Source of the DNA: a virus
Virus record (IMG/VR): IMGVR_UViG_3300020416_000016
Span: 1-41,218 of that record
Length of the DNA: 41,218 nt
Direction: 5' to 3' (one strand)
Shown one piece after another: positions 26,456 to 39,699 of this stretch. The position numbers were made by a program, and so were the translations under genes. The notes beneath the pieces are model-generated. The model was not told the DNA's origin, did no database searches, and was given only the letters and a program-made list of their open reading frames with translations. How positions within the stretch are numbered: position 1 is the stretch's first letter; the number at the start of each line of letters is the position of its first letter.

Positions 26456-28795
26456 ATGTCAAAAATACTTGCAAATCAGATTGCCAACTACGCTGATAAC
26501 TCACCCATAGAGCTGAAAGAAGGTCTGAATATTCCTGCTGGCAAGGAACTTCAAGCAGGTGGAACTTTTGGAACATTAGGACAAGTACTGAGTTCTACTG
26601 GCACAACTATACAATGGACAAATCCTTTCAGTGGAAATTATCAAGACTTAACTAATAAGCCTACAATTCCAGCAGCACAAATCCAGGCGGATTGGAATGC
26701 TACTACTGGACTTGCAGTTATAAAAAATAAACCAGCGATACCAGGTATCTCTACGGTGACGGTTGCGGCTCCTAGTGGTGGTGGTAATTTATCGCTTAAT
26801 AATGCTAACGCAGAATTTACATACACTCCACCAGACCTTAGTGGATACTTAACATCACTTGGTGCTGCTGCTGGTGTTACTACTGCAAAGATTACTAACT
26901 GGGATACAGCATATGGTTGGGGTAATCATGCTAGTGCTGGTTACGTAACTTCAATACCTGCTCTTGCTCTTAGTGGTTTATCAAATGTATCTTCCAACGC
27001 ACCTAGTGATGGACAAGTTCTTAAATGGAACAATGCAAATAGTGAATGGGAACCTGGAACTGATCTTACTTCATCAGGTGGTAGTGGTATAGCATTAACA
27101 GATCTTTCTACTTCTACTGGTGCTGCATCAGGTGGTGGATCGTTGTCATATAATAATGGAACTGGTGTATTCACATTTGCACCTGCTGATCTTACTTCAT
27201 TCATTACTGCTGAAGTAGATACATTACAGTCTGTAATTACTAGAGGTGCAGTTGTAAACTCAGGATCACCTACCTTTAATGTTTCTGTTAGTTTTGATGC
27301 TGACATTAATGTCAATCAACATTTAGAGATGGTTGATGATAAGATCATCAAGTTGGGAACTGATGATGATCTACAAATAGCATATACTAATAGCACAGAT
27401 ACATCAACAATTACAGACACTTCTACTGGTCTAACCATTAGTAGTCCTGATATTGGATTAAACTCTGGTGCTACTAAGTTTGTAAAAGCAAATGCTACAA
27501 ACACTATAATATATCACAATGATTCTGCTCGTATAACCACAACTTCTACAGGTATTACTGTTGCTGGATCTGTTACTGCTAGTGCTGGTAACTCAACCAA
27601 TTGGAACACAGCATATGGTTGGGGTGATCATTCGCAGGGTGGATACTTAACATCACTAGGTGATGCTGGTAATGTTACTAATGCAAAGATTACTAATTGG
27701 GACAATGCATATGGTTGGGGTGATCATAGTGTTGCTGGATATCTATCTAATATTGTAGAAGATACCTCACCTCAACTTGGTGGTGCATTAGATCTAAATG
27801 GTTTTAGTATCGCTGGTTCTGGTGGTGGAGTAACTAAAACTTCTATCACTGAAACAAGTGGTTATTTCCCTACTGAATTTGGACATTATGCTGGTACTAC
27901 AACTCTTGGTTGGACATTTCAAAATACTGGAGTAGCAGTATGTAGAGCAGATGGACCTAATAGTAATGGAACTGGTATAAACGCACTTCAGATAGGAAAC
28001 TTTAATGATCTATCATGTTTGACTATAGATGGTGCTGGTACATTTGCTACTGATTCAACAGTTACTGCTACTGGTGGATTTGTTGGTGACTTAACTGGTA
28101 ATGCTGATACTGCTACAACAGCAGGTGATTTATCAATCAATGCTACAGCAAGATTATTATATCAAGCTGCGAATAATGACACTGATATCTTACCAGCTGG
28201 TAATGCTAATGAGGTTTTAGTATCAGGGGGATCTGGTGTAGTACCATCTTGGACTAGTACTCCTACATTCTCTGCTACAAATTTAACTAACTTAAATGCA
28301 AGTAATCTAGCTTCTGGAACAGTTCCAACGGCAAGACTTGGAACTGGAACTGCTGATGCTACCACCTACCTGAGAGGTGATGGATCTTGGCAAGTTGCTT
28401 CTACTAGTGGTCTATCTACGAGACAAACTTATACTGCTACAACTGTTAGTCTTTCTGATGGTACAACTGATAATATTACTGTTGTTGGATATAAATCATA
28501 TGCTTTACTTGCTATTGAATTATCTGCTGCTGCATGGGTCACGGTTTATACTGACGCTACAGCTAGAGCAGCTGATGCAGGTAGAAGTGAGAACACAGAT
28601 CCATTACCAGGATCAGGTGTTATTGCTGAGGTAATTACAACATCAGCTAACCAGAAACAGATCATTACACCAGGAACTATAGGATGGAATAATGATGGAA
28701 CACCTTCTACAAACATGTATTTGAGGGTAGTTAATAAGAGTGGTGGTACTACTACAATAACAGTTGGTATGACAGTAATCAAACTAGAGGCTTAA
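26456..28795 (+). CDS. Tail fibre-like protein with AYGWG repeats (779 aa)
   Basis: This is a fibrous, Gly/Ser/Thr/Asn-rich protein with almost no cysteine. A conserved N-terminal block (SKILANQIANYADNSP) probably attaches it to the virion. The repeated module N-W-(D/N)-x-A-Y-G-W-G-(N/D)-H-x-x-x-G-Y occurs near residues 146, 382 and 412. Other fibre-type modules are TTYLRGDGSW and a PQLGGALDLNG segment. The C-terminal ~130 residues look globular and beta-rich, a likely receptor-binding or trimer-capping tip. It is preceded by a late promoter and hairpin and followed 2 bases later by the subtilase-adhesin. Confidence 0.82.
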   Translation: MSKILANQIANYADNSPIELKEGLNIPAGKELQAGGTFGTLGQVLSSTGTTIQWTNPFSGNYQDLTNKPTIPAAQIQADWNATTGLAVIKNKPAIPGISTVTVAAPSGGGNLSLNNANAEFTYTPPDLSGYLTSLGAAAGVTTAKITNWDTAYGWGNHASAGYVTSIPALALSGLSNVSSNAPSDGQVLKWNNANSEWEPGTDLTSSGGSGIALTDLSTSTGAASGGGSLSYNNGTGVFTFAPADLTSFITAEVDTLQSVITRGAVVNSGSPTFNVSVSFDADINVNQHLEMVDDKIIKLGTDDDLQIAYTNSTDTSTITDTSTGLTISSPDIGLNSGATKFVKANATNTIIYHNDSARITTTSTGITVAGSVTASAGNSTNWNTAYGWGDHSQGGYLTSLGDAGNVTNAKITNWDNAYGWGDHSVAGYLSNIVEDTSPQLGGALDLNGFSIAGSGGGVTKTSITETSGYFPTEFGHYAGTTTLGWTFQNTGVAVCRADGPNSNGTGINALQIGNFNDLSCLTIDGAGTFATDSTVTATGGFVGDLTGNADTATTAGDLSINATARLLYQAANNDTDILPAGNANEVLVSGGSGVVPSWTSTPTFSATNLTNLNASNLASGTVPTARLGTGTADATTYLRGDGSWQVASTSGLSTRQTYTATTVSLSDGTTDNITVVGYKSYALLAIELSAAAWVTVYTDATARAADAGRSENTDPLPGSGVIAEVITTSANQKQIITPGTIGWNNDGTPSTNMYLRVVNKSGGTTTITVGMTVIKLEA
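26891..27748 (+). repeat. Three copies of the AYGWG fibre repeat
   Basis: Copies lie at about 26891-26952, 27595-27650 and 27689-27748, each encoding N-W-x-x-A-Y-G-W-G-x-H-x-x-x-G-Y. The first and third are also similar for about 40 bases upstream (TSLG-A-x-x-VT-x-AKI), giving a long direct repeat nearly 800 bases apart that could recombine and change fibre length. Confidence 0.75.
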
Positions 28796-28797
28796 AG

Positions 28798-31700
28798 ATG
28801 GAAAAAATCTATGTCGTAACTCTTCACAATCGTGAAGACCTAGATGGGTTCTATAGTGACATGGCTTCTGAAGGATATCGTTTGTATCAGAAGCGTCCTA
28901 TTAGTAGGAACACACACTATTGGATGACAGAGGCACAGGCAGCAGAAATTAAAACAGATTCTAGAGTATGGGATGTTGAGTTACGTCCAGAAGAGTTAGG
29001 TATTACTCCTGAACCATTTGCATTAGAAAGGATTACTTCACATCAACAGACTGGTACATTCCGTAAGTCAACTGCTGCTAACTATACTGCAACAGATTAT
29101 GATTGGGGTAAGTTGCATTGTGCTGGTACTGATTCTGATAGAGATAAGGGTACGTTTGGTGGTGATGGAACACAAAGTAAAACTGCAACTGCTACTATCT
29201 TTAATGATGGTAAACATGTTGACGTAGTTATATGTGACAACCAAGTATCAATTGATATGAAAGAGTGGGACGGTGGTAGTGGTAGTAGTAGATATGTACA
29301 GTATGATTGGTATACAGAACTTAATAGTTATGTAACTAGTATTGATGATGATGGTATTACTATACCTAGTCCTCCTTACAACAATTATTTTAGTAACACT
29401 GTTAATGAAACTTATCATGGTACTCACGTGGCAGGTACTGTTGCTGGTAAAACTTATGGATGGGCTAAGGAAGCAAACATTTATAGTATGCAGGTGTTAG
29501 GTAATTTTGGTGGTCAAGGTACTGCTATGAATACTTACCTTATGTTTGATTATCTAAGAGCATTTCATAGGCATAAAGCAGTCAATGCTACTACTGGTAG
29601 AAGGAATCCTACGATAACAAATCATAGTTGGGGTTATGGATCAACTTTAGATCCATGGGACATTGGTGATTTGAACTCAATAATTTGGCGTGGTGTAACT
29701 TATAATTCTTCTAATCCTAATCCAAGTGGATGGACTATTAATGGAGTAGAGGCAGACTTTGGTCTTGCTCCTAGTAAACGTAGATTAAATTCACACATAA
29801 CTGCTATACAAGCAGATGTAGAGGATGCTATTGAAGATGGTGTGGTTATTATTGGTGCTGCTGGAAACAATGATTATTATATGGTTCCACAACAGAACCC
29901 AGATGGAACAACACATCAGGATTGGGATAATAGAGCAATTTTTAATACTCAAGGAACAAGATATTTTTGTAGAGGATCTAGTCCTAATAGTTCTCCTAAT
30001 GTTATATGTGTTGGTTACATATATGATGATAAAAATTTTAAAAGAAATCCAAACTCTAACTTTGGTCCTGCTATAGATGTATGGGCTCCAGGTACTCAGA
30101 TTATTTCTTGTTGGGGTAAACCAGGAGTTATCATGGATAGTGGTGGTTCTACACTCAACTATGGTATTGCTGATACAAAGTATGGTGGAGATCCTCAGTA
30201 TTGTTATCCTATTAGTGGAACTAGCATGGCATCACCACAGGTCTGTGGTATTGCTGCATGTCTAGCAACAAATAAAGAAAGGTTTACTAATGATGATGTT
30301 CTATCTTACATACAAAAGAATTCAAAGGTAAGTGACATGACCTTTGATGTTGGTCCTTCTGGTGGACAATCATCATACTTTTTCAGTACTAATGCTACTG
30401 GATCTGGAGCATATATTGTAAGTGGAACAGATGTTAATGGTGCTGTTAGTGGTAACAATCCAACTATTAGTATGCATGTAGGTGACACTGTACAGTTCCA
30501 ACAACCTCCTACAGGTAGTATGTTTGCTCAAATAACAGCAGTATCTTCCCCACAGAATAGTGTATATACAACACCAGGATCATATAGTTGGACTTGTCCT
30601 GCTGGTGTGACATCTGTTTGTGTTGTTGCAATTGGTGGTGGAGGTGCTGGTAGTAACGGTAATACTGCTGGAGAGGGTGGTGCTGCTGGAGGTGGTGGAC
30701 TTGGATGGAAGAATAATATTTCAGTAACACCAGGACAATCATATACTGTAGTCGTTGGTGCTGACGGTGTTGTACCAGGTAATAATGGTGGTGATTCATA
30801 TTTTATAAACACATCTACTGTAAAAGGTGGCGGTGGACAAGGATCAACAACTCAGGTTGGACAACCTGGTGGAACTTATACTGGTGATGGTGGTGGTAAT
30901 GGCGGTGCTGGTGGAGATGGTGGTCAAAGCGTTCCAGGAACTGGATATGAAGGTGGCGGTGGTGGAGCTGGTGGATATTCTGGAAATGGTGGAGATGGTG
31001 GTGGTGGAGATGGATCAACACATCCTAATGTTGTTGGTCTTGCTGGTAGAGGTGATGATGGATCTGGTGGAGCTGGTGGTGGAGGAGGATATGGTGGTGG
31101 ATATGTTGGAGGTGGTGTAGGACTCTTAGGTGAAGGTACTAGTGGTTTAGGTTGTGGAAACTATACTGGTGTTCAATGTTTTGGAAGTGGTGAACCTGGA
31201 TCTGATGGATCCACTAACCTGTATGGTGGTGGTGGATCTGGTTCTGGTGCTCAAGGTGGTAGTGGTGCTGTAAGAATTATATGGGGTGCTGGTAGGTCAT
31301 TCCCTTCAACTAATACTGGGGATCTATCCACTGCATATACCATTCAATATTCTGATAGAACTGTAATGCATAGTAATCCTGGTGGATCACTTGGTCCTAG
31401 TGATAATCCTACTATCAATATGGAAGTAGGTGATGCTGTTGATTTTTCTCCTGCTACTAGCATAGCAAATGATCCTATCTATATAAAAACTGCTGCAACT
31501 ACTGGGTCTGGAGATCAAGTTACTACAGGTACTACGTATGGTCAGGGTGGAACAAGTGGTACTGGATGGGATACTAATGCAGGGACGACTGTAGTTCCAG
31601 GAACGTATTATTATCAGTCTGGAAATAATCTTGGTGTAGGTGGAACGATTGTAGTACATGCTGCTGGTACATATTATAATCATCCACTCTATATTAAGAC

Positions 31701-32418
31701 GGCTCAAGGTACTGGTACAGGTAATCAAGTAACTGGTGCAACTAATCAAGGTTCTAATAGAGCTGAAGATGTTGTTAGTTGGCAAGCAACTGCTGCTGGT
31801 ACATACTATTATCAATGTGCATTACATTCTGGTATGAATGGACAGATTGTAGTTACAGCACAACCAGGAGTACTAGGACAGAATGGAAACTTTAGTGATC
31901 CTACCTGTCAAAAAGATAGTCCTAATAGATACATCCTTGCAGTTAATCCACGTCCTACTAGTGGACTTATAGGTGAGGTAAAAGGATCGAGAGTACCAGT
32001 ACCAAAAGCAGGAACTTCCAGACAGTTATTCCCAAGACCACGTACCTATCATGAGAGACAAGATACAATTTTTACTTTTGATGTTACTACTGTAACTGAT
32101 CATTATGTTTTTACTGGATCTGATCGTTCTACTACTCATACTGGAGCACAAGATCCAACTATTAATATTAACGAAGGTGATGTGATACATTTTAATGTTG
32201 TTGCACCTAGCAATCCATTCCAGATAAAAACTGCTGCTGGAATTGGAACAGTAAATCAATTAAAAACATATGGATTTGTTGGTGATGGTAATGGTGTTAT
32301 TGGTAATGAGGCAACAAATAGCCAGGTTCAATTATATACTTATGGACTATCAGGAACTACATTATACTATCAATGTAGAGTTGATTCTAATTTGGTAGGA
32401 CAGATCGTTATCACATAA
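28798..32418 (+). CDS. Subtilisin-like protease fused to glycine-rich adhesin and cupredoxin-like repeats (1206 aa)
   Basis: Domains in order: an I9-like propeptide (about 1-90, KIYVVTLHNREDL with SRVWDVELRPEE); an S8 subtilase (about 110-520) with candidate D147 (VDVVICDN), H207 (HGTHVAG), oxyanion N357 (GAAGNND) and S476 (GTSMASP); a glycine-rich adhesin domain (about 596-840, YSWTCPAGVTSV to GAVRIIWGAG); and cupredoxin-like beta domains (about 850-1206). The middle cupredoxin-like unit has H962, C1007, H1010 and M1013, a full type-1 copper ligand set; the others lack it. No signal peptide is present. It is probably a virion adhesin that can degrade host or competing surface proteins, possibly after self-cleavage. 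It shares modules with the 311-aa protein downstream. Confidence 0.85.
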   Translation: MEKIYVVTLHNREDLDGFYSDMASEGYRLYQKRPISRNTHYWMTEAQAAEIKTDSRVWDVELRPEELGITPEPFALERITSHQQTGTFRKSTAANYTATDYDWGKLHCAGTDSDRDKGTFGGDGTQSKTATATIFNDGKHVDVVICDNQVSIDMKEWDGGSGSSRYVQYDWYTELNSYVTSIDDDGITIPSPPYNNYFSNTVNETYHGTHVAGTVAGKTYGWAKEANIYSMQVLGNFGGQGTAMNTYLMFDYLRAFHRHKAVNATTGRRNPTITNHSWGYGSTLDPWDIGDLNSIIWRGVTYNSSNPNPSGWTINGVEADFGLAPSKRRLNSHITAIQADVEDAIEDGVVIIGAAGNNDYYMVPQQNPDGTTHQDWDNRAIFNTQGTRYFCRGSSPNSSPNVICVGYIYDDKNFKRNPNSNFGPAIDVWAPGTQIISCWGKPGVIMDSGGSTLNYGIADTKYGGDPQYCYPISGTSMASPQVCGIAACLATNKERFTNDDVLSYIQKNSKVSDMTFDVGPSGGQSSYFFSTNATGSGAYIVSGTDVNGAVSGNNPTISMHVGDTVQFQQPPTGSMFAQITAVSSPQNSVYTTPGSYSWTCPAGVTSVCVVAIGGGGAGSNGNTAGEGGAAGGGGLGWKNNISVTPGQSYTVVVGADGVVPGNNGGDSYFINTSTVKGGGGQGSTTQVGQPGGTYTGDGGGNGGAGGDGGQSVPGTGYEGGGGGAGGYSGNGGDGGGGDGSTHPNVVGLAGRGDDGSGGAGGGGGYGGGYVGGGVGLLGEGTSGLGCGNYTGVQCFGSGEPGSDGSTNLYGGGGSGSGAQGGSGAVRIIWGAGRSFPSTNTGDLSTAYTIQYSDRTVMHSNPGGSLGPSDNPTINMEVGDAVDFSPATSIANDPIYIKTAATTGSGDQVTTGTTYGQGGTSGTGWDTNAGTTVVPGTYYYQSGNNLGVGGTIVVHAAGTYYNHPLYIKTAQGTGTGNQVTGATNQGSNRAEDVVSWQATAAGTYYYQCALHSGMNGQIVVTAQPGVLGQNGNFSDPTCQKDSPNRYILAVNPRPTSGLIGEVKGSRVPVPKAGTSRQLFPRPRTYHERQDTIFTFDVTTVTDHYVFTGSDRSTTHTGAQDPTININEGDVIHFNVVAPSNPFQIKTAAGIGTVNQLKTYGFVGDGNGVIGNEATNSQVQLYTYGLSGTTLYYQCRVDSNLVGQIVIT

Positions 32419-32460: not shown

Positions 32461-35400
32461 ATGGCTAATCGTTTTCCATTGATTGTTAATGAAGTTTCTA
32501 AGAAGATAGAGGAACTTGTATCAGGTGACAATCTAGATTTATCAGGTAATAATATCATTATCAGTTCAGACACAGGTTCAGGTAAGTACTTGACCAGTGA
32601 TGGTACTGCGGTGTCATGGGGTACGCCTGGTGATGTTTATCTAACACAAACCCAGACTCTTACTAATAAGACTCTTACTTCAGCAATCATATCTGGATCT
32701 CAGAATACTCTTAGTAACATTCCAAACAATGCTCTCTCCAACTCATCTATAAGTGTTAACGGAACTCAGATATCATTAGGTGGAACAGTTGTAACTCCAA
32801 ATGATAATACTACTTACGCTATTAGTGCTACTGATGGATTAAATGCTACTCAAAAAATTGTTCGATTAACTGCTGGTGGATCTGGAACAGGTACTGATGA
32901 TGTTACTATTGCTGTTGGTGCTCCTCAATCTGTGCCAGCTGGTTCTAATGCTGTTGCGTTAGAGATCTCTAGAGCTGGAGATGTAATTACTATTGCTGGT
33001 TCTGCTCCTGATGCAGATACTATTACAACACTACAAGCTGCTCAAGGTGGTGCTGCACAGACAGGTGCAATGAAAATTTCTGGTAGTGGATCTACTACTG
33101 TTACACAGAACGCAGCAACAAATACTATTGATGTTAGCTCAGTATATGTTGATACTATTACAAGACTGAGAGCAACTGCTGGTCAGTCATATGCCTCTGG
33201 AGATTTTACATTCCTTGCTACTGGAGCAACAACTGTAGCACAGGGTATAGATGGCAACAACGACCCAACAATTACTTTTGATTCTACCAACACAGTTACT
33301 CGTGTTAAGGGTGGAACTGCTGGAACTCTTGTGTCTGGTGATGTTAATATCTTAGGTGGTACTAATGTTACAGTAACACAGGCAGGTAATGATGTTACCA
33401 TTGCTAGTCAAGACAACGATACTATAACAAGATTAGCATCTGGAAGTAATGCTGTTACTGCTGGTGACTTTAAGATTGCTGCTGCTGGTGCATCTACTGT
33501 TACACAGGCAACAGTTGGTGGAGTCACAACAATCACAATTTCATCTGTTAACAGTGATACTGGTGCTTCATTGACAGCATCTAATGGTGTTCTATTATCT
33601 GGTTTAGATTTCCAGTTAAAGAATGCTGCTAACCTAACAGGTAACACTGTAATGAAGTGGGACTCTGGTAACTTCCAGTTAGCAGACAGTCTTATTACTG
33701 ACAACGGATCTACAGTTACCATTGGTGGTGACCTAGTTGTCAATGGTACACAAACAATTTTAAACACAACCACTTTAGAAGTAGAAGATAATTTAATTGA
33801 ACTTAGAAAGGGTAATAATATAAGTGGTGCTGATGGTGGTATTCAACTTAATAGAACTACTGATGGTTCTGGAAACACAACTGCTTATCAAAGATTAGAA
33901 TGGTATGAGTCTGGTGCTTACTGGAGATCATGGGATGGTTCTGTATCAAGAAGATTTGTAACAGAAGGTGAGACACAGACACTTACTAATAAGACTTTAA
34001 CATCTCCTATATGTACGAACCCATCACTAGGTGCAGCAACTGCTACATCTGTTAATGGACTTCAAATTACATCAACTGCATCTGGTGTTCTATCAATAAC
34101 TTCAGGAAAGACTCTTGATGTTCAAAGAGATGTAACTCTAACAACAGACAATGCTGTTGCTGCTGTTAGTGCAAACCTTAGATCAGGTGGTAACGTAGCA
34201 TATACATCTGATACTCTTGCTACCTTTGCATCTACTACATCCACACAGCTTCGTGGTTTGATTAGTGATACAACTGGTACTGGTCGTCTTGTATTCCAAA
34301 CCAGTCCTAATATATTAACCAGTATGATAACAACATCTACTGGTTTTACTCTATTCAATACTAATGCTACTTCTATCACTGCATTTGGAGCAGCATCTGC
34401 TATTACTATGGGTGCAGCAGGTGGTGACTTTACAATTAATCAGAATTTAATAGTTAATGAAGACCTAACAGTTGGTGCTTCTATTACAGATAACATTCTT
34501 CTTAAAGGTACTGTTAATATAGACAACGCAGACCTTGTATTGTTTGGAACAAGTAATGATCCATTTAAGATAGGTCGTGGTAACAGTAGTGTTAATACCA
34601 ACATAGCTATTGGACATGATACTCTTGCCAATAACAGTTCTGGATCTCAGAACATTGCAATAGGTATGGAGTCACAGTTGACAACCAATTCTGGTGCAGC
34701 GAACTTATCCGTGGGTCATCGTGCATTACGAGCAAATGGAATTGGAGATGACAATATTGCTATTGGTAGAGACACAATGCTTGTCTCCCTTACTGGTGAG
34801 AAGAACGTTGCTATTGGTAACAACGCATTAGAGACACTCACTGGAGGAAATGCAAACGTCTGCATAGGATACTATGCTGGATACAATGTTAAAGGTACTG
34901 GTAATGTTATCATCGGTCCTGCTGATGATGCTAACCAAACTAACTCAACCTTTGAACCACCTAATGTTAATGGTGACAGGCAGTTAGTTATTGGTTCTGG
35001 TACTGAGGCATGGTTAAGAGGTGATGCAAACTTCGATCTTACTTTAAACAAAGACGTAACTATTAATAATGATTGTCTTGTTAAAGGTAACCTTACAGTT
35101 AATGGTACAACAACTACTGTTAAATCTAACGTGGTTGAGGTGGCAGACAAAGCAATCGAACTTGCTGCTGTTGTAAGTATAACTTTTGCTGCTACTGTAA
35201 CAGATGGTACTGCTAACCTTACATCAATAACCCCTACACTTGGATTGATTCCAGGTATGGAGGTTCAGACTTCTACTGGTGGTATCACAATACCTGGTGG
35301 AACAACAATTGTTTCTATTACAAATAATACTGCGGTACTTTCAAACAATGTTACTGGTAATGGAACGGCACAAATAACTGCTCTTGGTCCTTCAGATACT

Positions 35401-35895
35401 TCTGCTGATGATGGTGGTATTATCGTTAAGGGTACTACAGATAAGAAACTTACATTCAAACACATAGATGGTGGTGTTACCTATAACACTTGGGTGTCTA
35501 CAGAGCATATGGATCTGGCAGATAACAAACACTATTCTATCAATGGGGTTTATATTGCTGACGAGAACACAAGAACTATCGGACCTAATAGTGGAGGAAC
35601 TGGTGGATCAGGTGGTCTTACTTGGACACTAGGTACTGCTCTAGATCTTGGTCTAGGATCTGTTGCTAGTAATATTATTCCTGATGCTGACAATACAAGA
35701 GATCTTGGATCTAGTTCTAATAGATGGGCTAACCTATACACTGGTGACTTACAGATGAATAATATGGGAATGGGTGGTAATGAAATTGATGGAACTGAAG
35801 GACACTGGACTATGCAAGAGGGTGCTGATTCAATGTATTTAATTAATAGATTGACTGGTAAGAAGTATAAGATTGCTATGACGGAGGTATCATAA
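32461..35895 (+). CDS. Long tail fibre with YadA-like head repeats (1144 aa)
   Basis: This is a Thr/Ser/Asn/Gly/Val-rich fibre. The N-terminus (ANRFPLIVNEVSKKIEELV) resembles the virion-attachment module of cyanophage fibres; TQTQTLTNKTLTS repeats occur near residues 60 and 505. A run of N-I-A-I-G-type repeats spans about 714-820 (for example NIAIGHDTL, NIAIGMESQ, NVAIGNNAL, NVCIGYYAG), the left-handed beta-roll of YadA-like head domains. The C-terminus contains DNTRDLGSSSNRWANLYT and a globular tail with YLINRLTGKKYKI. It is preceded by a late promoter and ends in a TAATG overlap with the glycine-rich gene. Confidence 0.85.
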   Translation: MANRFPLIVNEVSKKIEELVSGDNLDLSGNNIIISSDTGSGKYLTSDGTAVSWGTPGDVYLTQTQTLTNKTLTSAIISGSQNTLSNIPNNALSNSSISVNGTQISLGGTVVTPNDNTTYAISATDGLNATQKIVRLTAGGSGTGTDDVTIAVGAPQSVPAGSNAVALEISRAGDVITIAGSAPDADTITTLQAAQGGAAQTGAMKISGSGSTTVTQNAATNTIDVSSVYVDTITRLRATAGQSYASGDFTFLATGATTVAQGIDGNNDPTITFDSTNTVTRVKGGTAGTLVSGDVNILGGTNVTVTQAGNDVTIASQDNDTITRLASGSNAVTAGDFKIAAAGASTVTQATVGGVTTITISSVNSDTGASLTASNGVLLSGLDFQLKNAANLTGNTVMKWDSGNFQLADSLITDNGSTVTIGGDLVVNGTQTILNTTTLEVEDNLIELRKGNNISGADGGIQLNRTTDGSGNTTAYQRLEWYESGAYWRSWDGSVSRRFVTEGETQTLTNKTLTSPICTNPSLGAATATSVNGLQITSTASGVLSITSGKTLDVQRDVTLTTDNAVAAVSANLRSGGNVAYTSDTLATFASTTSTQLRGLISDTTGTGRLVFQTSPNILTSMITTSTGFTLFNTNATSITAFGAASAITMGAAGGDFTINQNLIVNEDLTVGASITDNILLKGTVNIDNADLVLFGTSNDPFKIGRGNSSVNTNIAIGHDTLANNSSGSQNIAIGMESQLTTNSGAANLSVGHRALRANGIGDDNIAIGRDTMLVSLTGEKNVAIGNNALETLTGGNANVCIGYYAGYNVKGTGNVIIGPADDANQTNSTFEPPNVNGDRQLVIGSGTEAWLRGDANFDLTLNKDVTINNDCLVKGNLTVNGTTTTVKSNVVEVADKAIELAAVVSITFAATVTDGTANLTSITPTLGLIPGMEVQTSTGGITIPGGTTIVSITNNTAVLSNNVTGNGTAQITALGPSDTSADDGGIIVKGTTDKKLTFKHIDGGVTYNTWVSTEHMDLADNKHYSINGVYIADENTRTIGPNSGGTGGSGGLTWTLGTALDLGLGSVASNIIPDADNTRDLGSSSNRWANLYTGDLQMNNMGMGGNEIDGTEGHWTMQEGADSMYLINRLTGKKYKIAMTEVS

Positions 35896-36830
35896 TGGCA
35901 GTTGTTGCAACAACAGGAGATGCTGGAGGAGATCAAATTTATAATGTAGCAGGAAACCATACGTGGACTTGTCCTGCTGGAGTTACTTCTGTATGTGTAG
36001 TATGTGTAGGTGCTGGTGGTGCTGGTGGAGGAGCGTTGGCATATAAAAATAATATTACTGTTGTACCAGGCACAGGTTATTCTGTAGTCGTTGGTGTTCA
36101 AGGTACTCCAGCATCAGGAACTAGTGGTGGTGGAGCAGGTCAGAATGATGGAACTCCTGGTGGAGACTCATCATTTACTGCCACTCATGGAACAACAACT
36201 GCACAAGGTGGTGTTGTAGGATCTTCAGCTAATAAAGGATCACCAGCAGGAGTTTTTGATGGTGGTGGTAGTGGAGGTAGTGTCTATAATAATGGTGGCT
36301 ACGGCGGTGGTGGAGCTGGTGGATATTCTGGAGATGGTGGTGATAATGAGGCATTTTCTCCTTGGGCGACTAATGGAGCTGGTGGAGGAGGTGCTGGTGG
36401 TGGTTGGGCTTTCTTCTCTGCTGGAGGAGTAGGACTTTTAGGTGAAGGTGCTAACGGACAAATTGCAGATCCATCTGGTGCTAATCCAGGTGACGGTGGA
36501 GGTGGTTCAGGTGGTGAAGATGGAAAAGGTGAAGGAACAAATGGTGGTCAATCAGATGTTGGTGGCGACTATGGTGGTGGTGCTAGTGGAAGATGGAGAG
36601 GAAACAAAGGTGGTAGAGGTGCTGTCAGAATAATCTGGGGTGCTGGTAGATCATTTCCTACTAATGCTGGTGCTGTTGGAACTCCAACTACAGGTTCTTT
36701 CAAGGAAGATCGAGTAGGTCTTGCAACAGGAACTTCTGATCCTTCTACCCCTGCTGCTGGAGATATATACTATAAGACTGATAGTAAAAAAGTCAGGATA
36801 TATAATGGTTCTTCTTGGTCAGACGTTTAA
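35895..36830 (+). CDS. Glycine-rich adhesin-like protein (311 aa)
   Basis: The first ~250 residues form a glycine-rich adhesin domain nearly identical in plan to that of the 1206-aa subtilase protein: WTCPAGVTSVCVV near the start, GGAGGYSGDGGD in the middle, and GAVRIIWGAGRSFP before the tail. The last ~45 residues (DRVGLATGTSDPS, then GDIYYKTDSKKVRIYNGSSW) are a fibre-attachment module also found at the start of the next gene. Poly-glycine loops of this kind resemble the receptor-binding tips of T4-group gp38-type adhesins. It is coupled to the fibre gene by a TAATG overlap. Confidence 0.75.
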   Translation: MAVVATTGDAGGDQIYNVAGNHTWTCPAGVTSVCVVCVGAGGAGGGALAYKNNITVVPGTGYSVVVGVQGTPASGTSGGGAGQNDGTPGGDSSFTATHGTTTAQGGVVGSSANKGSPAGVFDGGGSGGSVYNNGGYGGGGAGGYSGDGGDNEAFSPWATNGAGGGGAGGGWAFFSAGGVGLLGEGANGQIADPSGANPGDGGGGSGGEDGKGEGTNGGQSDVGGDYGGGASGRWRGNKGGRGAVRIIWGAGRSFPTNAGAVGTPTTGSFKEDRVGLATGTSDPSTPAAGDIYYKTDSKKVRIYNGSSWSDV

Positions 36831-36839
36831 GAGGTAATT

Positions 36840-39044
36840 ATGCCAGTATTAGTTGGAGATGGTACTACAGGTACTGAAGGAAAATCAGATAGGATAGGAG
36901 TTGCTATTGCATCTAGTGATCCTGCTTCGGGAGTTGCAGGTGACTTGTATTTTAATACTGCTAGTAGTAAATTAAAAGTATATGACGGTACTTCATGGAA
37001 TGAATTAGGTGGTGGTGCTAGTACGGTAGGTAATGTTGATCCCTTTGGTGACAGTAGTGGCGTGGCCTTATGGCAAATGGATGGCGATGGTGATGATATT
37101 GGTGGTAGTCATGATGGTACTCCAACTAATGTAGTTTGGAGTTCTACTGCTAAGTTTGGTGCAAACTCTGGAGACTTTGGTACTAATAGTGGTACGATAG
37201 CAATAAGTGGAACTCCAAAGAACTCTTATCCATTTACAGTATCTTTATGGGCTCAGAGTAATGTTGATTGGAATTCTATGGGTGCTGGAGCTATGAATGA
37301 ATGCTTTAATGCTAATATATCTAACCAGAGAGTTTCAATGGGGTTTGTTACAAATAGTGGTTGGGTTGATGGAGTAACTTTGATGTATGGTGGTACTTCT
37401 CATTACGTAGGTCATGTTGAATTTATGAATTATGGTGGTAGTACTAAGTGGCATCATATAGTTTGGAGTGTTGCTGGTAGTGCCGATACTGATCATCATG
37501 TTTGGATTAATGGCCATCCTGTTTTCATAAAAGATGAGGCAGGTGGACATGGTGGTAGTGCTGGATGGAACATAGGATCTAACTCTGCTGGTACTGAGCA
37601 CTGGGATGGACGCATAGATCAAGTTAGATTTTTTAATAGAGAAATTACTGATTATGAAGCACTTGCTCTTTACAGAGAAGGAGCAGAATCATCTGCACCA
37701 ATAACAACTCATTGTAAATTATTCTACGATTTCTCTGACACTGCCTGTTATCCTGGTAGTGGTACAACAGTAACTAATCTTGCTACTGAAGTAGCTGCAA
37801 ATAAATTTACTGGTACTGTTGATGGAGCAACCTTTGGTGGATCTGGTAGTGCAAAATACTTTGACTTTGATGGTAGTAATGATAATATAGACACTACTGA
37901 ACTTCCTACTGATGTGCATACCAATAGACAAGTTACATTAGAAGCATGGTATAAAGCTGATGCTGTTGGTGGTGGCGATGGTATAAATTCAATCATTTCA
38001 TCACAGAATGACGGTGCTAATCAGAACGGAGTATCAATCAGTGTAGATAGTCGTACCGCACATGGCGGTGGACCAGAAGGATACCATTTCCAGATGGGAC
38101 GAGTTAATGCTGGATGGACTACTGGTGGTACAGGTAATACTAATCAAGGTACAGGAGATGTTTCTACTCATTGGAATCATGTTGTAGCTACATTTGATGG
38201 TGCTAGGAAGAGAGTCTATAAGAATGGCATGTACATAGAAGACATGGGAGACTTTACATTTGCTGAGACGGAACAGATTGACTATAGTAGTTGTCATTGG
38301 GCTCTAGGTTGTCAACCTGATAATAATGGAGATCAGAGATGGTTTAATGGTCAGATTGCTATCGCAAGAATATATGATGCAGCATTAAGTCATGCTCAAG
38401 TACAACACAATTATGATGTAGAAAGAGGTAGATTTGCTGAACCACAGGATATTTGTTGGGCTCTTCCTGAAAGTAATTGGACATTAAGTAATGATGCTCG
38501 TACAGCAGTGTATACTGGTAGTGGATATAGTGATTGCTTTACAGGAAAGTTAGCAGACGATGCTGTGTATGATTTTAAATTAGAAGTTACTAATGGTGAT
38601 GCTAATGGTGGTTGGTGGTTCTCTGGTAGTCAAGGAACGAGTGGATCTCATCCAGATGAAAGACAAGATGATACACTTGGATTGAGAGGTGGAGAGTCAT
38701 CCATAGGTGCTTATGGTACTTATGCTGCTGCTAATGGTTGGAGTCCTGGACAGAGTGTAGACAGTGGGTATGGTAATTTAGATCCAACTGGAAATATTAA
38801 TATAAATTTTGTTATTAATATGAAGGTAAGGAAGGTATGGTTGAGAGAAGAAGGAGATCCATTAACTACTTGGAAAGGTGGTGGTAATCCTTCCAATCCT
38901 GCTAGTACCCCTACTTTCTATCTTCCACCTAGACAAGGTGCTGGAAACACACCTTCTTATGAGAATGTATATTTCTGTTGCACTGCATATGATAACAGTA
39001 GTCAAACATATAAGTTCTCAAATCACGGACAGACAAACTTATAA
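36840..39044 (+). CDS. Fibre/adhesin with two LamG-like domains (734 aa)
   Basis: The N-terminus repeats the module that ends the previous gene (SDRIGVAIASSDP, then GDLYFNTASSKLKVYDGTSW). Two concanavalin/LamG-like beta-sandwich domains follow: about 65-280 (FTVSLWAQSNVDW, WINGHPVFI, GRIDQVRFFNREITD) and about 300-530 (YFDFDGSNDNIDT, VTLEAWYKAD, WNHVVATFDGARKRVYKNG, GQIAIARIYDAALS). A further beta-rich C-terminal domain (about 540-734) is unrecognised. LamG domains usually bind carbohydrates, fitting recognition of host lipopolysaccharide or other glycans. The gene starts 9 bases after the glycine-rich gene. Confidence 0.8.
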   Translation: MPVLVGDGTTGTEGKSDRIGVAIASSDPASGVAGDLYFNTASSKLKVYDGTSWNELGGGASTVGNVDPFGDSSGVALWQMDGDGDDIGGSHDGTPTNVVWSSTAKFGANSGDFGTNSGTIAISGTPKNSYPFTVSLWAQSNVDWNSMGAGAMNECFNANISNQRVSMGFVTNSGWVDGVTLMYGGTSHYVGHVEFMNYGGSTKWHHIVWSVAGSADTDHHVWINGHPVFIKDEAGGHGGSAGWNIGSNSAGTEHWDGRIDQVRFFNREITDYEALALYREGAESSAPITTHCKLFYDFSDTACYPGSGTTVTNLATEVAANKFTGTVDGATFGGSGSAKYFDFDGSNDNIDTTELPTDVHTNRQVTLEAWYKADAVGGGDGINSIISSQNDGANQNGVSISVDSRTAHGGGPEGYHFQMGRVNAGWTTGGTGNTNQGTGDVSTHWNHVVATFDGARKRVYKNGMYIEDMGDFTFAETEQIDYSSCHWALGCQPDNNGDQRWFNGQIAIARIYDAALSHAQVQHNYDVERGRFAEPQDICWALPESNWTLSNDARTAVYTGSGYSDCFTGKLADDAVYDFKLEVTNGDANGGWWFSGSQGTSGSHPDERQDDTLGLRGGESSIGAYGTYAAANGWSPGQSVDSGYGNLDPTGNININFVINMKVRKVWLREEGDPLTTWKGGGNPSNPASTPTFYLPPRQGAGNTPSYENVYFCCTAYDNSSQTYKFSNHGQTNL

Positions 39045-39075: not shown

Positions 39076-39699
39076 ATGTTAAAAACTAGAGCAGTCCTAC
39101 CCAAGAATGAGGGGTGGTTAGAAGTTGTATTACCTACTGATGTTATCGAGGACATTGATAACATGATAGAAAATGCTGGCGAGTGTGTTAGAGATAGACT
39201 CGCTGGTAATATTTCTAACAGTCAAGAGTTGACATCAACTGAAAGTTTTGAGAAGTTTATACAACAAGTAGTAGATATATATCAACAGAAGTTTGATTAC
39301 AGACCAAGACCTACTGCATTTCCAGTAGATGTTCCTTTTATTTTAAAGTTGAATGATCTATGGGTAAACTATCAGTATCAAACAGAATTTAATCCATCAC
39401 ATACACACTCTGGTGTCTTCTCCTTTGTTATATGGAGGAAGATTCCAACAGATGCTAGACAACAATTAGAGTTACCCTTTGCTAAGAACACTACTCTTCC
39501 ATGTGTTTCTTGTTTTCAGTTTGAATATATGAGCATACTAGGTAATAGAAAATCATATAACTATGCAATGAATCCTAACATGGAAGGTATGATGGTGTTT
39601 TTTCCTGCTGCATTGAACCATCTTGTCTATCCTTTTTATGGTACAGATGATGTCAGAATTTCTGTTGCAGGAAATTTGGCGTGGATTCCTGATAAATAA
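39076..39699 (+). CDS. 2-oxoglutarate/Fe(II) oxygenase-like protein (207 aa)
   Basis: This is related to the gene at 25934: FNPSHTHSGVFSFVIW gives the H109-x-H111 pair, GMMVFFPAALNHLVYPF gives the distal H182, and R194 lies in VRISVAGN. The N-terminal 90 residues form a helical cap (including PKNEGWLEVVLPTDVIEDIDNMI). The H-x-H first ligand is shared with the homologue. The position directly after the fibre operon suggests modification of a virion or host surface component, but the substrate is unknown. Confidence 0.7.
   Translation: MLKTRAVLPKNEGWLEVVLPTDVIEDIDNMIENAGECVRDRLAGNISNSQELTSTESFEKFIQQVVDIYQQKFDYRPRPTAFPVDVPFILKLNDLWVNYQYQTEFNPSHTHSGVFSFVIWRKIPTDARQQLELPFAKNTTLPCVSCFQFEYMSILGNRKSYNYAMNPNMEGMMVFFPAALNHLVYPFYGTDDVRISVAGNLAWIPDK
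39691..39698 (+). promoter_or_regulatory. Late promoter box GATAAATA
   Basis: It overlaps the oxygenase stop codon and ends 23 bases before ATG 39722, the spacing seen for the box at 13924. Confidence 0.5.

Follow-up and report, generated by a model that had tools for sequence, protein, structure and literature searches.

Type-1 copper sites are familiar from proteins that carry electrons and from the centres of enzymes. The locus described here raises the question whether such a site is also present in a protein of a phage particle, and what it would do there. It lies in a virus record from IMG/VR that was analysed over its whole length of 41,218 bases (hereafter the window), and whose kin are marine cyanophages of the Kyanoviridae. 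An earlier note on this DNA had described cupredoxin-like repeats at the C-terminus of a subtilase, and had proposed that one of them keeps a complete type-1 copper site.

Gene neighbourhood and domain layout

The subtilase gene is flanked by a tail fibre gene (phrog_9729) and a gene for a virion structural protein (phrog_6002). The gene, its neighbours, its domains and the codons of the proposed ligands are located in the window as follows:

26456..28795, + strand: upstream neighbour, tail fibre protein, phrog_9729
28798..32418, + strand: whole gene, subtilase with glycine-rich and cupredoxin C-terminal regions, 1206 aa
28798..30360, + strand: protease part, residues 1-521, phrog_9158; PF00082 at 179-509; D147, H207, S476
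30568..31284, + strand: glycine-rich domain, residues 591-829, PF21722
31330..31662, + strand: cupredoxin unit 1, residues ~845-955, full barrel with its ligands lost (D892, S941, N944, V947)
31663..31857, + strand: unit 2, residues ~956-1020, appended C-terminal half cupredoxin with ligands H962, C1007, H1010 and M1013
31681..31683, + strand: codon of H962, with the invariant P963 next to it
31816..31836, + strand: ligand loop C1007-x2-H1010-x2-M1013 (C1007 31816-31818; H1010 31825-31827; M1013 31834-31836)
32068..32415, + strand: cupredoxin unit 3, residues ~1091-1206, full domain (N1139, C1193 (kept), D1196, L1199)
32461..35895, + strand: downstream neighbour, virion structural protein, phrog_6002

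The protein is an S8 subtilase, with a score against PF00082 of 82.2 bits (cut-off 21.8 bits, E 5e-23), and the catalytic Asp, His and Ser motifs are present (D147, HGTH at 207, and GTSMA at 474, which contains S476). In the cyanophages S-H9-1 and ACG-2014j the corresponding gene adjoins genes annotated as ‘tail fiber-like’ and ‘structural protein’. Judged by this neighbourhood and by the annotation of relatives, the subtilase is probably located on the outside of the virion, as part of a tail-fibre/adhesion cluster. The profile phrog_4474 is matched both by a 311-aa protein encoded downstream (35895-36830) and by residues 539-845 of the subtilase (~30412-31332), which suggests that a glycine-rich domain is common to these two proteins of the cluster. 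Further downstream, positions 36840-39044 encode a protein with a Laminin_G_3 (concanavalin A-like lectin) domain, a probable additional adhesion protein of the tail/adhesion cluster. Directly past the tail cluster, a putative 2OG-Fe(II) oxygenase (PF13759) is encoded at 39076-39699.

The C-terminal part of the subtilase contains IKT repeats at residues 891-898, 961-968 and 1138-1145. All four residues that had been proposed as copper ligands, H962, C1007, H1010 and M1013, were found in the open reading frame 28798-32418 where the earlier note had placed them, with C-x2-H-x2-M spacing, and the sets of the flanking units are degenerate (D892/S941/N944/V947 in unit 1, N1139/C1193/D1196/L1199 in unit 3). 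A His together with a C-xn-H-xn-M motif at the cupredoxin positions is present in unit 2 alone, and absent from units 1 and 3. The layout of the repeats had to be revised, as the middle unit had been taken for a full cupredoxin repeat. Units 1 and 3 each span a full domain of ~110 aa. Unit 2 is a half domain that lacks strands 1-3: its C-terminal strands, those that bear the ligands, are fused straight onto the final strand of unit 1. This arrangement of one and a half domains is common to 15 homologous rows. A 21-bp tandem repeat of 2.3 copies (31704-31751) lies inside the coding sequence of the half domain, between the codons of H962 and C1007.

Fold and class of the putative copper site

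A cupredoxin fold had been proposed for the C-terminal repeats, and matches obtained with a family profile, AlphaFold2 (AF2), Foldseek and VIA agree on it. Against the PDB, a profile of 47 family members matched copper nitrite reductase, plastocyanin and amicyanin, with a best E of 5e-6; its alignment with plastocyanin places all four ligand columns on the plastocyanin ligands. The family profile was used in place of the window segment alone, for which phmmer ranked antibody and ribosomal L2 noise above amicyanin. The Pfam family Copper-bind (PF00127) is matched at E <= 0.01 by 32 of the 47 relatives (best 1.1e-6), with scores under its gathering cut-off of 21.2 bits for the window C-terminus (13.2 bits) and for the relative L128 (18.4 bits). 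The NCBIfam amicyanin model TIGR02657 is matched at the same threshold by 30 of the 47 (best 2.4e-7), and L128 falls far short of the equivalog cut-off of the NCBIfam plastocyanin model TIGR02656 (17.9 versus 87.85 bits).

Structure models were built for a canonical relative and for the window protein. The canonical domain of L128 was predicted by AF2 with a pLDDT of 96.6. Foldseek with this model returned, at E <= 0.001, rusticyanin, AcoP, nitrite reductase, laccase and plastocyanin, together with one prothrombinase complex, and VIA aligned it with nitrite reductase (Z 10.8, 93 residues, 2.2 A) and rusticyanin (Z 10.7). The window segment was folded from alignment A3, which contains two-unit rows only; alignment A1 was left unfolded, as its single-domain rows straddle both halves of the window region and would bias the contacts. 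In the resulting model of residues 841-1030 (pLDDT 81) the canonical barrel is unit 1, and model residues 1-120 superpose on the cupredoxin domain of nitrite reductase (Z 7.2, 90 residues, 2.6 A). Foldseek with the whole 841-1030 model gave nothing at E <= 0.001, and mixed Ig and cupredoxin folds below that level of significance; for this reason the claims on fold rest on L128 and on unit 1. The appended half has block pLDDT values of ~71-89, with predicted strands where strands 4, 7 and 8 belong.

Taken by these profiles and models, the module family is a member of the cupredoxin fold superfamily, with a predicted Greek-key beta-sandwich. The first His would be located on strand 4, and the loop joining strands 7 and 8 would hold the Cys, the second His and the Met with the spacing of amicyanin; the convergence of the four ligands is putative, based on strand order and fold match. 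In plastocyanin and amicyanin the first ligand His is followed by Asn. In the phage family, Pro directly follows the first ligand His in all 91 scored units (P963 in the window). A His-Pro at the type-1 His is also present in multicopper oxidases of the laccase type, and by its sequence the phage site resembles a hybrid, with a His-Pro as in the oxidases and a Cys-x2-His-x2-Met loop as in amicyanin.

Conservation and concerted loss of the ligands

The first homologue scan used peptides containing Cys and His, and was biased towards complete sites. Because of this, retrieval was repeated with the protease domain alone and with the degenerate units 1 and 3, and all retrieved sequences were searched with a profile in which the four ligand columns were masked. 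The result held. After dereplication at 80% identity, 84 of 101 units found with the masked profile, nearly all on marine phage contigs, read HCHM. In 91 dereplicated units the ligand columns, masked from the profile, were 92-95% identical, versus 57% for the mean column. The subset retrieved by the protease alone gave similar values (HCHM in 36 of 42; ligand columns 97% conserved, mean 55%). Judged from these alignments, ligand conservation is well above chance.

Losses of the ligands are coupled. The contingency table for Cys versus the second His was [[84,1],[0,6]] (Fisher p=1e-8), and for the first versus the second His p=5e-7; related sequences were counted in both, so that the p values exaggerate the association and are indicative only. 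In degenerate units, with sets such as DSNV, ESNA, ESNY and YSAM, more than one ligand has changed at the same time. Co-variation of H/C/H/M in marine-phage homologues had been set beforehand as the test on which the proposal could fail, and it passed, the ligands being conserved and lost in concert. Among 16 rows with one and a half domains, the second half has all four ligands in 15, oftener than the first half.

The subtilase itself was followed through 40 distinct close orthologues with a stop codon inside the contig. The module was present in 35 of these, and no unit was detected in the other 5. At least one complete H/C/H/M set was found in all 35 module-bearing orthologues, 24 of which had been retrieved by the protease domain alone. 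That only the middle unit is complete, as the earlier note had it, is true of the window protein but not of its relatives: unit 1 is complete in L003, L004, L012 and L087, and unit 3 in L102, whose complete unit is the sister of window unit 3 in the tree (100/98 support). Since these units are complete in relatives, two of the three sites of the window protein have probably been lost and one retained. A tree that combined phage and bacterial domains had too few columns to place the origin of the phage form.

Several other arrangements of the module were observed. In L003 (ORF at 1556) and L004 (ORF at 864) an extra complete cupredoxin lies inside the protease domain (residues ~169-278), before a DYDWYTEL stretch. 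Phage proteins of ~2724 aa (L016, L052, L054 and similar) contain between two and four H/C/H/M units, and among these is a full domain with an appended half domain, as in the window. In more distant phage subtilases the module is mostly absent altogether; most of L131-L170, mostly ~545-606 aa long, stop shortly after the protease domain, without a cupredoxin. Near the subtilases of L142, L145, L146, L148, L167, L169 and L170, a separate ORF bears an HCHM unit.

Distribution in phages and cells

Among annotated phages (40-42 records per query), the carriers of the domain are cyanophages, along with a few marine single-cell viruses and one actinobacterial phage from a lake. The carrier proteins are named tail fibre, tail spike, proximal tail fibre, baseplate wedge tail fibre connector and peptidase S8, and a structure search of viral models returned like kinds of protein (tail fibre, tail spike, baseplate connector, subtilase). 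The ligands were complete in all isolates that were read out (P-SSM2, S-H9-1, ACG-2014j, P-HM1, P-SCSP2, P-TIM68, DSL-LC01, Bellamy and S-BM3). Cellular relatives, found in the scan that required Cys and His, are almost all from marine Bacteroidetes, either small proteins or parts of large ones. Nine of them (L234, L237, L240, L242, L245, L247 and L251-L253) are ~125-155 aa in length, and most of each is taken up by one cupredoxin domain with a complete site. L176 is a contig binned as a Euryarchaeota MAG and encodes a 1236-aa protein with the family domain; its unit is close to the phage units, and for that reason the contig may be viral.

Possible roles of the site

We consider it fairly probable that the module is a copper-binding, probably copper-stabilised, type-1-like cupredoxin domain on an exterior tail or adhesion protein. 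Its ligand pattern leads us to infer that the module binds copper in vivo and, with less weight, that one intact site per protein is under selection as extra copies decay. The module would take up copper from the lysate, from sea water or at the host envelope, and the bound copper would mainly fix the ligand loops of a beta-domain that is exposed in the adhesion module; we are less sure of both steps. Redox transfer or copper sensing would be possible as well, and no partner for them was found.

This reading has to be weighed against others that concern the metal. A site in which the ion is purely a structural rivet, either zinc or a Cu(I) that never cycles, and not a functional blue-copper centre, would suit a domain found in adhesion and tail proteins without any redox partner. 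The replacement of His-Asn by His-Pro also points that way, and structural iron in phage tail fibres sets a precedent. However, Cys, Met and two His at cupredoxin positions are typical of copper, and the Met, 94-97% conserved in the family units, is seldom retained in zinc sites; we regard the rivet as unlikely. Following a suggestion of the earlier note, the site could instead function on the virion in redox chemistry or in copper sensing, for example in electron transfer at the host surface or in triggering the neighbouring protease. A complete type-1-like ligand set is indeed fused to a subtilase with intact catalytic motifs, and the pairing of protease and cupredoxin recurs in many phages, but no redox partner was seen in the gene cluster and the domain also occurs in fibre and baseplate proteins without a protease, which makes such a function very unlikely in our estimate.

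Two further readings hold that the residues form no metal site. It is highly improbable that the fold is a mere beta-sandwich for adhesion with relic ligands and no metal: many ligand-less units are retained in the same proteins, including two of the three in the window, but the ligand columns are among the most conserved, their losses are concerted, and every module-bearing close orthologue has a complete set. It is also possible that only full domains elsewhere are competent, and that in the window the unit 2 residues, in a half domain without strands 1-3, belong to a decaying motif. AF2 does assign the barrel to unit 1, with the half appended. Against this, the second half is complete in 15 of the 16 rows of this layout, and therefore looks like a selected site, and its predicted strands fall at the expected places of strands 4, 7 and 8; a decaying motif thus seems quite unlikely to us.

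The copper-binding reading would have consequences beyond this protein. A type-1-like site appears to be strongly selected in tail and adhesion proteins of ocean phages, in one protein after another. If these sites do bind copper, phage particles would belong among the organic copper ligands of the ocean, and copper could be needed for adsorption. A testable annotation is also provided for many proteins now called ‘hypothetical’ or ‘tail fiber-like’. Tentatively, and with considerable doubt on our part, this may be extended to marine tailed phages at large and cyanophages above all, in which widespread blue-copper domains on fibres and baseplates would matter for adsorption or entry, as a copper counterpart of T4-type iron, and phage particles would then form a pool of bound copper in sea water.

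Comparison with known systems

The closest structural likeness is to the small type-1 copper cupredoxins (amicyanin, plastocyanin, pseudoazurin and rusticyanin), which have the same Greek-key sandwich, a His on strand 4 and Cys-x2-His-x2-Met. In contrast to these, the phage form is a module at the C-terminus of a subtilase or tail protein, where tandem copies are frequent and extra half domains occur, and it has a conserved His-Pro, not His-Asn. The closest cellular relatives found are cupredoxins of marine Bacteroidetes, ~29-54% identical to the family query, which have the same GHPFYxKT...GTYYYQCxxHxxM signature; many of these are small (~125-155 aa) or lie within large cell proteins, and are not encoded by phage tail genes. 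A viral protein with a matching fold, at rank 40 in the structure search, is the ‘Blue type 1 copper protein’ of Fadolivirus. It is short (153-aa model) and belongs to a giant virus, unlike a phage tail module. No paper linking cupredoxins with phage tails or virions was found, which, given partial coverage of the literature, is weak evidence of novelty.

The nearest functional precedent is iron in tail fibres. HxH iron sites are present in the tail fibres of T4 (gp37) and of Alteromonas phage R22Y, with proposed roles in adsorption and in ocean metal cycling (PMC11705849). There a metal is held by residues of a tail-fibre protein (PMC11705849), but the T4-type site is octahedral and of an unrelated fold, whereas the phage cupredoxin site contains Cys and Met. 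We file the module as a known fold with a known site in a new setting.
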